From: Phycisphaerae bacterium
GTDB taxonomy: Bacteria > Planctomycetota > Phycisphaerae > Phycisphaerales > UBA1924
Assembly (NCBI GenBank): GCA_022180725.1
Contig: BQMO01000011.1
Span: forward strand, 1 to 64,000
Length of the DNA stretch: 64,000 nt
Reading direction: 5' to 3'
Shown: positions 8,011 through 22,917 of the stretch, piece after piece
Layout: every line of letters starts with the position of its first letter
How positions within the stretch are numbered: position 1 is the first letter of the stretch
Position numbers and translations under genes: made by a program
Notes under the pieces: generated by a model
Told to the model about the DNA's origin: nothing
Databases searched by the model: none
The model's input: only the letters and a program-made list of their open reading frames with translations

Positions 8011-8303
8011 CTGCGGTTCTCCTTTGGCGGCGGGCGATTCCGCCCCCGCGTCGCACATGAAGCCACGCGGGCTACGCCATGGCAAGGCACATCGCGAGAA
8101 GTTCGCGCACATCGCGCAGAACCTCGGATTCCCGAGGCGCAAGGACTTGTCCTGAGGTACACGGGGCGTCGCGGGGCGCGTGGGGGCACAAAGGCCCCGC
8201 CCGTTGGGCGACGTTGGCCCACGGCGCGTACCGGGGCGCGGGTGCGGCCACGGGCGGGGCGCTACGGGGCCGCGAACGGGGCCAACGCGGGGGGCGCGTT
8301 CCT
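8011..8303. other. divergent intergenic region
   Basis: This GC-rich gap separates the minus-strand run from the plus-strand gene at 8304 and should hold promoters for both. A 32-codon open frame (8058-8155, starting MKPRGLRHGKAHREKF) is present but has no ribosome site or other support. No clear promoter boxes or repeats were found. Confidence 0.4.
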
Positions 8304-8852
8304 ATGAATGCACACGGGGACAATCTCCGAGGGGTCAACCCGCCCGAGGGCGATCCCCCGGCGGATGGCGCGCCCGTTTCGGGAACGGTGGTCGAAGACC
8401 GCGCGCCGTACCTCGAAGGGCTGACCGCCAATCAGGAAGCGGCGCTGCTGGCGCTCATGAGCGAACCGACGGTGCTGAAGGCCGCGGAGAAGGCGGGCGT
8501 CGCCTCGCGGACCATCTACAAGTGGCTCGAGAGCGACGAGCGGTTCGCGCGGGCGTACCGGGCGGCGCGGCGGCAGACGTTCGTTCACGCGATGACGATG
8601 ACGCAGCGCTACGCGCCGATGGCGATTCAGGCCCTCGCGAAGATCATGACGGACTCCGCGGCCCCCGCGTCGGCGCGCGTGTCGGCCGCCAATGGCATTC
8701 TGAACTTCGCCCGCGACAGCATCGAACTCGACGACCTCGCCGAGCGCGTGAAGGCGCTGGAGCAAGCGGCGAACCCCACGCCGCCGCCGACGCACGCGAT
8801 GCCGCCGCCAACCCCGCCCGCGGCCGAAGAGCCGCAGCGGCGGGCCGCGTAG
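8304..8852 (+). CDS. HTH protein resembling phage terminase small subunits
   Basis: The product is 182 residues. The core (residues about 45-150) has a helix-turn-helix segment, VLKAAEKAGVASRTIYKWLE, then SDERFARAYRAARRQTF and a helical region ending LDDLAERVKALE. This layout is typical of the small terminase/phBC6A51-type HTH proteins that recognise packaging sites. The termini are Pro-rich and disordered. No large terminase subunit is present in the window, so a stand-alone DNA-binding role, or a satellite that borrows a helper phage's packaging motor, is possible. It is followed directly by three small genes that probably share its transcript. Confidence 0.6.
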   Translation: MNAHGDNLRGVNPPEGDPPADGAPVSGTVVEDRAPYLEGLTANQEAALLALMSEPTVLKAAEKAGVASRTIYKWLESDERFARAYRAARRQTFVHAMTMTQRYAPMAIQALAKIMTDSAAPASARVSAANGILNFARDSIELDDLAERVKALEQAANPTPPPTHAMPPPTPPAAEEPQRRAA

Positions 8853-10832: not shown

Positions 10833-10872
10833 GCGCGCGCTACGGATACACGCAAGAGGCGTAGCGGTGGCG

Positions 10873-11604
10873 TCAAGCAGGCGGTTCGGACGATGCCTCG
10901 GACTTCCGAATGAATGCACGGACCTCTGGGCTGATCTTCGCGTGAAAACCATCGATGCCTAAGCCGAGCACCTTGATTGAGAGCCCGACGGCGGTCGAAT
11001 AGGCGGTTATCGCATCGGTGCCCATGTCCGCGTGGGAGTGCGAGAAGCGGTGCAAGTATGCATTGCGAATCTTCGCGATGGTCTTGAACATCTCCGCAGT
11101 CGGAGCGTCAATCAGGTTGAGCAGTTCAAGAATCCCGACCCTGCGGCTATGTTCTATCTGCTCGAAAGTACGTCCGAACAATCTTTCCTGACGGCTTGGG
11201 CTCATGGCGCTAGCGCCTGTGCCGTGCGGCGAGATCTGGAACCGCAGAATCGCCAGCATTTCAGCGACCATTCCAGAGAGCGCGATGCAGCCGAGTTCGT
11301 GTCCGAGCACGAATGCCACCTTCGCCTGGTGCAACGGGATGAGGACCTTCTCGAACAGCATCTTTTCGTGTGGGAATACCGCCATTTCATGATCACACTC
11401 GGCGACGCGCGAGTATCGCCCCGGCAGCACCTTCATGAGGGGAGGGGTCAGTGTCTTGCAGAACCACTTCAGCGCTGAATCGGCCTGAAGATCGACCGGT
11501 TCCAGCCGTGGCTCGTCCGCTTCCAGCCACCGAAGATAGTTGAGGGAGACTCGCATCATCTCTGGCCCGCGTGGGCGTTCTGCCCCTGAGTGCTCTTGAG
11601 TCAT
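10873..11604 (-). CDS. hypothetical helical protein with an RxxxxH motif
   Basis: The product is 243 residues from 11604 (MTQEHSGAERPRGPEMMRVS), with AAGGG upstream. It is largely helical with no membrane segment or signal peptide. A segment IRNAYLHRFSHSHADMG contains R-x4-H (RNAYLH), the signature of HEPN ribonuclease domains. Since the protein sits on a defence-carrying element, a HEPN-like role is possible, but the motif is short and could be chance. No nucleotidyltransferase partner of the MNT-HEPN type is adjacent. It may be DUF-type cargo. Confidence 0.5.
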   Translation of the reverse strand: MTQEHSGAERPRGPEMMRVSLNYLRWLEADEPRLEPVDLQADSALKWFCKTLTPPLMKVLPGRYSRVAECDHEMAVFPHEKMLFEKVLIPLHQAKVAFVLGHELGCIALSGMVAEMLAILRFQISPHGTGASAMSPSRQERLFGRTFEQIEHSRRVGILELLNLIDAPTAEMFKTIAKIRNAYLHRFSHSHADMGTDAITAYSTAVGLSIKVLGLGIDGFHAKISPEVRAFIRKSEASSEPPA

Positions 11605-12279
11605 TATGCGTCCCTTGTGCACGAACTGGTCCGCTGAAGCGCCGCCGCGACGGCGGGCTGCCGTTGCACGAGTCTACAACCCCCGCGTCATAGCGCGTAT
11701 CCGCGCGGTAGTCGGTCCCGACAATCCAACTACGCCCTCCCCGCCCGCGCCCTGACCGCGTCAACGACCGCCGTCGGCATCCCGCTCGGGCGGCGCCTGC
11801 GGCCACAACCGACAGTTCGGTGTGCCCCGTGGTGCCGCGTTGCGCACGCTCGTGCCACCCGCCGGAGCGCCAAGACTGCTACGTTCCAGCGTTGACAACC
11901 GAAGACGCTCGCACAGGGGTTCGAGTCGCTCGGTCGCCCCGCCGAAGCAGTCTGCTCAGGCGAAAACACGGCGAGCCACGGAAGCGGCAATGACCCTCGC
12001 GCACGACGCGCGACCTGTGGGACCGTCCGGCGTACCGCGCCTAACGGGCCGCGTCCCCGAACTTGGCGGCAGCATTACTCCAAACCCGGGCAACGCAGCG
12101 GTGCGACCCGGCCCACGACACGATGCCGCGTTGGTAGGGGACTTGTGCGAGCGTTCAAGTTTCGCGTGCGCGCCGTTTTGTGTTGTGCGCTGATGCGGAC
12201 GTCGAATCCTCTTCCGAAGCGCCGAACGGGGCGTCGGAGGTCGTGGGATAAACCGGCGGTGCGCGCAACGAGCCCGTTC
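11605..12279. other. 675-bp region without an intact gene
   Basis: Only fragments are seen: a 48-bp copy of the adjacent tyrosine recombinase 3' end (11731-11778) and otherwise GC-rich sequence with no supported start or ribosome site. It may be the scar of a decayed or deleted recombinase gene. No promoter could be assigned. Confidence 0.5.
11731..11778 (-). repeat. 48-bp copy of the tyrosine recombinase 3' end
   Basis: This segment nearly matches 12281-12328 at the same length with a few substitutions. It encodes the same C-terminal residues (TAVVDAVRARAGRA versus TAVVDAVRARAWGA). Homology stops abruptly beyond it. It is either a remnant of a second recombinase gene or a duplicated recombination site overlapping the gene end. 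Confidence 0.7.
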
Positions 12280-12897
12280 CTACGCCCCCCACGCCCGCGC
12301 CCTGACCGCATCGACCACCGCCGTCGGCGCGATGTGGTCGAGGTACAGCACCGTCGTCAGCAGGCTCGTGTGCCCCAACTGCTTCGAGATGATCCCGATG
12401 TCCACGCCCTCGGCCCGCAGTTGCGCCGCGTGCGTGTGCCGGAACCCGTGCGCGTGCACGCGCTTGGCGACGCCCGCCCGCCGCGCGAGGTCGGGGAGCA
12501 GGCGGCGGATGTAGGCGCTCGTCACCTTGCGGCCGGTGTTCGAGCAGAACAGCGGCGCGTCCGCGGGCACGCCCAGCGCCGCCCGCTCGTCGGCCCACGC
12601 CGCGACGAACTCGAACGCGCGGTCGTCCACGCCCACGGTGCGGGAGCGGCCGCCCTTGCCGAAGAGCACCCGGATGGCCCCGGCCACGGCGTCCACGTCC
12701 TTGGGCCGCAGGGACAGGGCCTCGTTCAGCCGCAGCCCCGCGCGGTACAGCACGGCCAGGATCGCCCGGTTGCGGGTCTTGGAGAAGGGCGGCCCGGGCA
12801 CGGCGTCGATCAGGGCTCGTACCTCGGCGTCGGTCAGGACCTCGGGGTGGAACCGGCGTGCGGGCTTGCGGCGGGCGGGACGGCGGCGCTTGGTCAT
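12280..12897 (-). CDS. tyrosine recombinase, catalytic domain only
   Basis: The product is 205 residues; the ATG at 12897 follows AAGGAG. It has the integrase catalytic set: Arg in YRAGLRLNEALSL (about residue 53), HGFRH (His150, Arg153), LGHTSLLTT and nucleophile Tyr185 in VLYLDHI. The usual N-terminal core-binding domain is missing; only about 20 basic residues precede the catalytic fold. Short Xer-like enzymes of this kind exist and may need DNA or partner contacts for specificity. Upstream, in the opposite direction, is the RyR-domain gene flanked by 42-bp direct repeats, the nearer of which starts 34 bp from this gene's start. That suggests, but does not prove, that they are its substrates. 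Confidence 0.85.
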   Translation of the reverse strand: MTKRRRPARRKPARRFHPEVLTDAEVRALIDAVPGPPFSKTRNRAILAVLYRAGLRLNEALSLRPKDVDAVAGAIRVLFGKGGRSRTVGVDDRAFEFVAAWADERAALGVPADAPLFCSNTGRKVTSAYIRRLLPDLARRAGVAKRVHAHGFRHTHAAQLRAEGVDIGIISKQLGHTSLLTTVLYLDHIAPTAVVDAVRARAWGA

Positions 12898-12930
12898 CGG
12901 TATCTCCTTGCAGCGCTACGGGTTGTGGGC

Positions 12931-12972
12931 GTAGGCGCAGCCACGAGGAGTACCTCAACGGGCGGGGAATGG
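12931..12972 (+). repeat. 42-bp direct repeat, copy A
   Basis: It begins gtaggcgcagcca and ends acgggcggggaatg. It aligns without gaps to 13443-13484; the first 13 bp and most of the last 20 bp are identical, with divergence in the middle. The two copies bracket the RyR-domain gene. Confidence 0.75.
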
Positions 12973-13014
12973 CAAGGGGGCGGTTCCCGCCGTACTCTGG
13001 CCGCGGAGGCCCCC

Positions 13015-13446
13015 ATGAACATCCAAGAGGCGGCGGTCGCTCTGGCCCGTGTTGCCCACGAACTGTGGCGCACGGAGATGGCGAAGGAAGGGTGGCGGTA
13101 CGGGCCGACGTACGACGAGTCCAAGCGTCTGCACGACGCGCTCGTCCCGTTCGATGAACTGCACCCGACCGACAAGCGGTGGACCCGGACGTGTCTGGAC
13201 GAGGTCGCGGCGGAACTGCTCGCGGGCGTCGAGTACCCGCGCGGGGACGACCGGGAGTTCGTGCCCGAAGAGATGATCGTGGGCATGCGGGTTGGGTGCA
13301 CGGAAGGCGATGACGAGGGCACGGTTCAGTCGTGGGTCGTCACGCCGGAGGGCTGCCTCGACACGATCACGGTGCGTTGGGACGACGGCGAGGTGACCGA
13401 GGCTTGCGCGGAGGAACGTGTGCTTCGGCGTGTGTGGAACGGGTAG
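13015..13446 (+). CDS. RyR-domain protein
   Basis: The product is 143 residues; the ATG at 13015 follows GGAGG with 5-nt spacing. Residues 5-62 match the RyR domain first seen in ryanodine receptors: VALARVAHELWRTEM, EGWRYGPTYDESKRLHDALV and PFDELHPTDKRWTR. Residues 75-143 are strand-rich (GTVQSWVVTPEGC, ITVRWDDGEVTEA). In bacteria RyR domains occur mainly on mobile elements and in conflict systems, where a nucleotide-sensing role has been suggested. The gene is bracketed by 42-bp repeats next to a tyrosine recombinase, so it may have arrived as a cassette. Family assignment is good; function is not known. Confidence 0.75.
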   Translation: MNIQEAAVALARVAHELWRTEMAKEGWRYGPTYDESKRLHDALVPFDELHPTDKRWTRTCLDEVAAELLAGVEYPRGDDREFVPEEMIVGMRVGCTEGDDEGTVQSWVVTPEGCLDTITVRWDDGEVTEACAEERVLRRVWNG

Positions 13447-13484
13447 GCGCAGCCAACACCGGTATCTCAACGGGCGGGGAGTGC
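13443..13484 (+). repeat. 42-bp direct repeat, copy B
   Basis: Second copy of the repeat at 12931; it starts at the stop codon of the RyR-domain gene. The distance between copies is 512 bp, exactly one gene plus its leader. Confidence 0.75.
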
Positions 13485-22527: not shown

Positions 22528-22917
22528 TCACTTCGCCGTGTACACGCCCCGCTCGACGCGCTTGAACCGCTTCTTGTCGCCCAGCGCGATGGTCACGCTG
22601 ACGCGGAAGTTGCTGGAGTTCGTCTTGTACCCGGCCTTCTGGACGGCGGCCGCCGCGTCCGCGATGGCCATCCTCTTGCCCTTAAGGACCGCGGCGAGGG
22701 CGTCGGGCAGGGTGACGGTGTTGGCAACGCGGGCGGCGGGGCGGCCCCGACTGGCGGCGACGCCGCCGTGGGAGGCGATCTTGGCGTTGATGGCCTCGAC
22801 CTGCCGGAGCAGACGGTCGCGCTGGCGGGCGAGTTCGTTGCCTTTGGCTTGGCGGCGGTCGAGTTCGCGCTGGATGGCGGAGACGGGCAGGCTGGCGAGG
22901 GAGGACGTACGGGCCAT
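22528..22917 (-). CDS. small protein with coiled coil and winged-helix-like domain
   Basis: The product is 129 residues from the ATG at 22917 (MARTSSLASLPVSAIQRELD), with AGGAG upstream. Residues 12-50 form a coiled coil (RELDRRQAKGNELARQRDRL…). Residues 68-129 (LPDALAAVLKGKRMAIADAA … KRFKRVERGVYTAK) show the same HARE-HTH-like pattern as the C-terminus of the protein at 6631-7062, ending RGVY versus RGVF. DNA binding is inferred. It could regulate the divergent small gene or act as an element-wide nucleoid-type protein. Confidence 0.6.
   Translation of the reverse strand: MARTSSLASLPVSAIQRELDRRQAKGNELARQRDRLLRQVEAINAKIASHGGVAASRGRPAARVANTVTLPDALAAVLKGKRMAIADAAAAVQKAGYKTNSSNFRVSVTIALGDKKRFKRVERGVYTAK

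Follow-up and report, generated by a model that had tools for sequence, protein, structure and literature searches.

The textbook natural system for the collection of single genes in cassette form is the integron. FimB and FimE are tyrosine recombinases of ~200 amino acids that consist of the catalytic domain only and invert one promoter segment. In the pdif modules of Acinetobacter, genes are flanked by dif-like sites and moved by tyrosine recombination through the host XerCD (PMC6449649), and the simple tyrosine recombinases (YRs) comprise a core-binding and a catalytic domain (PMC8138268). A search of the open literature, with subscription journals outside its scope, found no system that matches the one described below.

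The window (the whole stretch of 64,000 nucleotides analysed here) probably holds, judging from sequence comparison, a small site-specific gene-cassette platform, comparable in its working to integrons or pdif modules and equipped with a minimal recombinase and a palindromic site of its own (Table 1).

Table 1. Features of the recombinase locus, in window coordinates.
Feature	Positions	Strand	Remarks
S1, perfect palindromic site	10839–10865		7 bp past the stop of the neighbouring gene
Cargo gene, 249 aa, no family	10873–11622	−	Unrelated gene in its place in G006:C38
Decayed copy of recombinase 3′ end	11730–11778	−	90% over 49 bp
Stretch separating the two 3′-end copies	11779–12279		No convincing gene
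Tyrosine recombinase, catalytic domain only, 205 aa	12280–12897	−	Pfam Phage_integrase, E 6e-32, residues 20–188
S2, palindrome GCTACGGGTTGTGGGCGTAGGCGCAGC	12915–12941		Directly upstream of recombinase start; 1 mismatch from GCTACG-N15-CGTAGC
Repeat 1	12931–12971	+	Right half of S2 with outer segment of recombinase module (promoter-like on minus strand)
CTTG motif	12973–12976	−	5′ edge of recombinase module in most loci with GAGGTACT or CCTGCTCG leaders
RyR-domain gene	13015–13446	+	PF02026, E 5e-11; between S2 and half-site
Repeat 2	13443–13483	+	Contains half-site TAGGCGCAGCC at 13444–13454, overlapping RyR stop codon

The first-pass annotation had described a recombinase reduced to its catalytic domain and starting 34 bp from the first repeat. 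This description holds, with a distance of 33 bp and a Phage_integrase match confined to the residues given in Table 1; the open frame has just 211 codons, leaving no room for a core-binding domain. Among 163 genomes of this family, 47 contain relatives at E ≤ 1e-25; a single genome has at most nine match segments, some of these being two segments of one gene. In a scan of named genome contigs nearly all hosts were Phycisphaerales or Planctomycetota MAGs (for example records CP054186.1, CP070827.1, JAHBXI01 and CAJPFG01), with one match in a MAG labelled Acidimicrobiia, and the viral contigs searched contained distant recombinases only. Two recombinases lie on the same strand, ~3.1 kb apart, on one contig of 5.3 kb (L166:854–5172). 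The G069-type recombinases (L069, L070, L072) have a repetitive stretch before the catalytic domain, the length of which varies between copies.

Recombinase copies inside one genome are typically 85–95% identical over about 700 bp, with both flanks differing in most pairs, indicating that the recombinase gene together with its leader has been mobile within genomes. At the 3′ end of the gene, paralog identity stays at ~0.9 up to base −21, is only 0.35–0.46 over most of −15 to −4 (apart from an Arg codon), reaches 0.98 at the final TGG and is near random beyond it. The leader regions hold a promoter-like CTTG...GAGGTACT element, and one genome (G071) has a solo 5′ end of the module, with the recombinase absent.

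Two 42-bp direct repeats, differing mainly in their middle and enclosing exactly one RyR gene, had also been reported in the first-pass annotation. Comparison of the two copies agrees with this: they are direct, 41 nt long, 83% identical (BLAST self-match within 5 kb, E 9e-5) and 512 nt from start to start, they diverge in their middles, and the RyR ORF, confirmed by its Pfam match, is the sole ORF between them. The search for further copies proposed there, with up to three mismatches allowed, returned only the two known ones in the whole 3.54-Mb genome, and on this count the literal repeat was rejected as a multi-copy site. The literal 42-mer is indeed absent elsewhere and without a tie to gene gain or loss, which does not apply to the palindromic site inside it. 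Repeat 1 begins in the centre of S2 and overlaps its right half, and repeat 2 is a half-site only, its left arm and centre gone; since repeat 2 keeps only the right arm, the homology between the repeats starts where the left half of S2 ends. In the nearest relative (G006:C38) the RyR gene occupies the same place with a full site adjacent and the second repeat absent, which dates its arrival to before the divergence of the two lineages. Together, the half-site and the relative without a second repeat indicate an insertion of the RyR gene that is old and perhaps fixed, and the RyR unit may have lost its mobility.

The window copy of the palindrome, S2, reads GCTACG-N15-CGCAGC. The genome has just two perfect copies, and one of them, S1, lies ~2 kb from S2, differs from it in the centre and bounds the opposite end of the recombinase and cargo block. 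The first-pass annotation mentions neither S1 nor the decayed 3′-end copy, nor the overlap of repeat 1 with a palindrome. In many Phycisphaerales loci GCTACG-N14/15-CGTAGC stands just upstream of the recombinase start, with perfect sites in several genera at at least 8 independent loci and with GATACG/CGTATC and GCTTCG/CGAAGC as variants upstream of other recombinases; several lineages, e.g. G110/G111, have no recognisable GCTACG site. The site can be read as arms of ~11 bp around a 7-bp centre, and some sites begin 3–12 bp past stop codons. Genome-wide, the perfect palindrome shows no excess over a reversed control pattern, and the case for the site therefore rests on its position, not its number. 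Likewise, a looser scan with the arm consensus gave 32 matches against 24 in shuffles, the one informative aspect of these matches being that they cluster upstream of recombinase starts; covariation of the arms compared with shuffles tells nothing, because the sequences were chosen by the palindrome. A half-site layout similar to that of the window was seen at G046:C33, where an outer segment with a left arm is followed by a unit of 2.7 kb, containing one large gene for a secreted protein, and then by a full site and the recombinase. Series of GCTACG-type sites at ~1–1.7 kb spacing, several of them 3–12 bp past a stop, occur at L208:5779–9164, a stretch with no recombinase, and at L060:1162–4400.

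Genome comparisons place the sites at the edges of exchanged DNA. In G069, G070 and G072, which belong to one genus, five comparisons switch between near-identity and divergence inside one 16-bp interval, CCGCTTTGGTCGCCGG; as the site in these genomes is readable as GGTACCGCTTT-GGTCGCC-GGAGCGTAGCC, this interval contains the site centre. At one G069 locus (G069d), the 5′ flank is that of G070c and the recombinase and 3′ flank are those of G070b; in G070 these two loci lie 30 kb apart on one strand. In G152, loci C5 and C21 match in the flank as far as the distal site and again in the recombinase beyond the proximal site, with different DNA between; C22 adds a third left/right combination, giving three of the four combinations at one site. 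Further homology breaks at sites, distal sites included, were found in G156 and G036. Homology-block edges fell within 40 bp of a site in 12 of 43 cases, against 1.3 expected and a maximum of 7 in 5000 random draws, the edges not being independent and part of the signal stemming from the 5′ end of the module itself. Searches with the flanks of the window, G069e, G015 and G144 yielded no clean empty site. The sites and their position, the homology breaks, the reassortment of flanks and the dispersal of the module are what the comparisons show directly. Separately, a repeat, GGCTCCGTTCCCGCCGTAGT, is present once per recombinase locus at 11 of the 14 loci in G069, G070 and G072, always downstream on the same strand, at +335 to +3582.

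The window and G006:C38 agree on the RyR side and in the left neighbour and differ in the DNA from S1 to the recombinase, where the 249-aa gene of the window is replaced by an unrelated gene of 386 aa. The homology breaks at the site and this varying cargo strengthen the earlier proposal of a cassette system other than the integron; the RyR gene as a live cassette is its weaker part, given that only a half-site remains and that G006:C38 lacks the second repeat. Cargo elsewhere includes SRAP, FRG, NOV_C/EVE-like, RHS and kelch/dockerin proteins, many others having no family, and the neighbours include some genes for secreted proteins of the dockerin, kelch or RHS type. In a comparison with PADLOC candidate-defence families, one FRG protein matched a family, and the RyR and 249-aa proteins matched none. 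Elsewhere in the window, 38 bp at 22530–22567 are identical in G006:C38 and recur in G006:C18 with ~88% identity over 42 bp. An ORF at 8079–8852, in a region conserved in G006:C38, weakly resembles a phage terminase small-subunit family, with a score under the Pfam cut-off.

Some recombinases are followed downstream by units of 0.4–1.8 kb, mostly with one main ORF, and every such unit ends in a noncoding copy of the last 35–150 bp of the recombinase. They are found at G110c (2), G053C58 (2), G006C18 (2), G077C1, G111C38, G069d/G070b, G115 and in the window, where the unit has no convincing ORF. The tail copies vary in length and several have broken frames. Over their last 35 bp they are 81% identical to recombinase genes, compared with 83% among those genes, whereas decay is seen in the 35 bp before them (80% vs 92%, P 2e-7), which suggests that the end of the tail is kept as DNA. 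The units may reflect a second reaction at the recombinase 3′ end, or may be remnants. In 22 whole genomes, strong matches to the tail profile lay nearly all at a recombinase or just downstream of it on the same strand, and solo tail sites elsewhere were rejected on this basis. An attC-like fold of the tail was likewise rejected, the tail folding no better than shuffles.

These arrangements would be explained if the recombinase pairs two palindromic sites and exchanges strands in their centres. DNA between the sites would then be gained, lost or replaced, the halves on either side would reassort, and copies or half-copies of the site would come to border neighbouring genes. In the window, S1, S2 and the half-site would delimit the recombinase and cargo block and the RyR gene, and each 42-bp repeat would consist of a right half, from S2 in one case and from a decayed third site in the other, together with the outer segment belonging to it; entry of the RyR unit at S2 should leave this layout. 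The role of this enzyme in the joining, the precise bases of crossover, circular intermediates and present activity are inferred from the arrangements. A fuller version can be put forward only tentatively, namely an integron-independent cassette platform of the Phycisphaerales in which the recombinase recognises the 27-bp palindrome and captures, swaps or loses genes, with the ~700-bp module spreading and its 3′ end also seeding cassette-like units.

The dispersal of the module could also mean that it is simply a selfish insertion, in which ~700 bp of leader and recombinase hop, the 5′ and 3′ repeats are remnants of nested or partly deleted copies, and the genes between them are trapped host DNA. 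Copies of 85–95% identity with different flanks in one genome, the broken frames and uneven lengths of the tail copies and the solo 5′ end in G071 are all consistent with this. However, such a module does not predict that homology breaks at distal sites remote from any recombinase, as in G152, G156 and G036, nor does it predict units with a single ORF that end at the tail, and we regard this explanation as unlikely. Ordinary homologous recombination between dispersed conserved leaders, acting as IS-like repeats, is less likely still. The palindrome would then be a conserved promoter or terminator hairpin only, in keeping with the sites just past stop codons and the promoter-like element in the leaders, and the recombinase genes at exchanged loci, 80–90% identical, would offer homology; crossovers should, however, scatter over the ~900 bp of common sequence, and the five comparisons fall in one 16-bp interval.

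An inversion switch of the FimB/FimE type, varying the expression of neighbouring surface-protein genes, would suit the catalytic-only architecture, the NCBIfam tyrosine-type DNA invertase models, which align along the whole domain below cut-off, and the secreted dockerin, kelch or RHS-type proteins among some neighbours. Nevertheless, the repeats around the RyR gene are direct rather than inverted, and in the comparisons the DNA between sites is replaced rather than inverted, making a switch highly improbable. A platform that exchanges cassettes at its palindromic sites remains our preferred explanation. It would account for part of the gene turnover beside these recombinases. As a second platform, common in a poorly studied planctomycete order and built on a smaller enzyme and a site that is short and simple, it would make it possible to test directly which features cassette capture needs.

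Of the systems already described, the integron has several features in common with the platform. Both have a tyrosine recombinase with a site beside its own gene, the gene content between sites varies, and neighbouring genes are bordered by sites, some of them just past a stop codon. By sequence criteria, nevertheless, it is not an integron. The integrase_gron model scores 82 bits against a cut-off of 265, its match split in two stretches around the IntI insertion, and the additional domain of IntI is absent. The first-pass view that the repeats are not attC-like was upheld, the sites being short GCTACG palindromes, with RYYYAAC/GTTRRRY boxes judged by eye. Unlike integrons, the Phycisphaerales system thus has an enzyme lacking both the core-binding domain and the IntI insertion, no attC, a site upstream of the recombinase start and a recombinase module that is itself dispersed in many copies. 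The site adjoins the recombinase, and arrays are short, with blocks often of several genes. Short sites on both sides of genes recall the pdif modules, which depend on host XerCD and dif-like sites, whereas here a dedicated small recombinase appears to be linked to a different site. The simple YRs (PMC8138268) are likewise short and have catalytic domains related to those of Xer and IntI, but the Phycisphaerales family has no core-binding domain. With FimB and FimE the family has in common a catalytic-domain-only enzyme of about 200 aa, although the invertase family cut-offs are not reached, and it differs from them in that the DNA between sites is replaced and the recombinase gene exists in dispersed copies.
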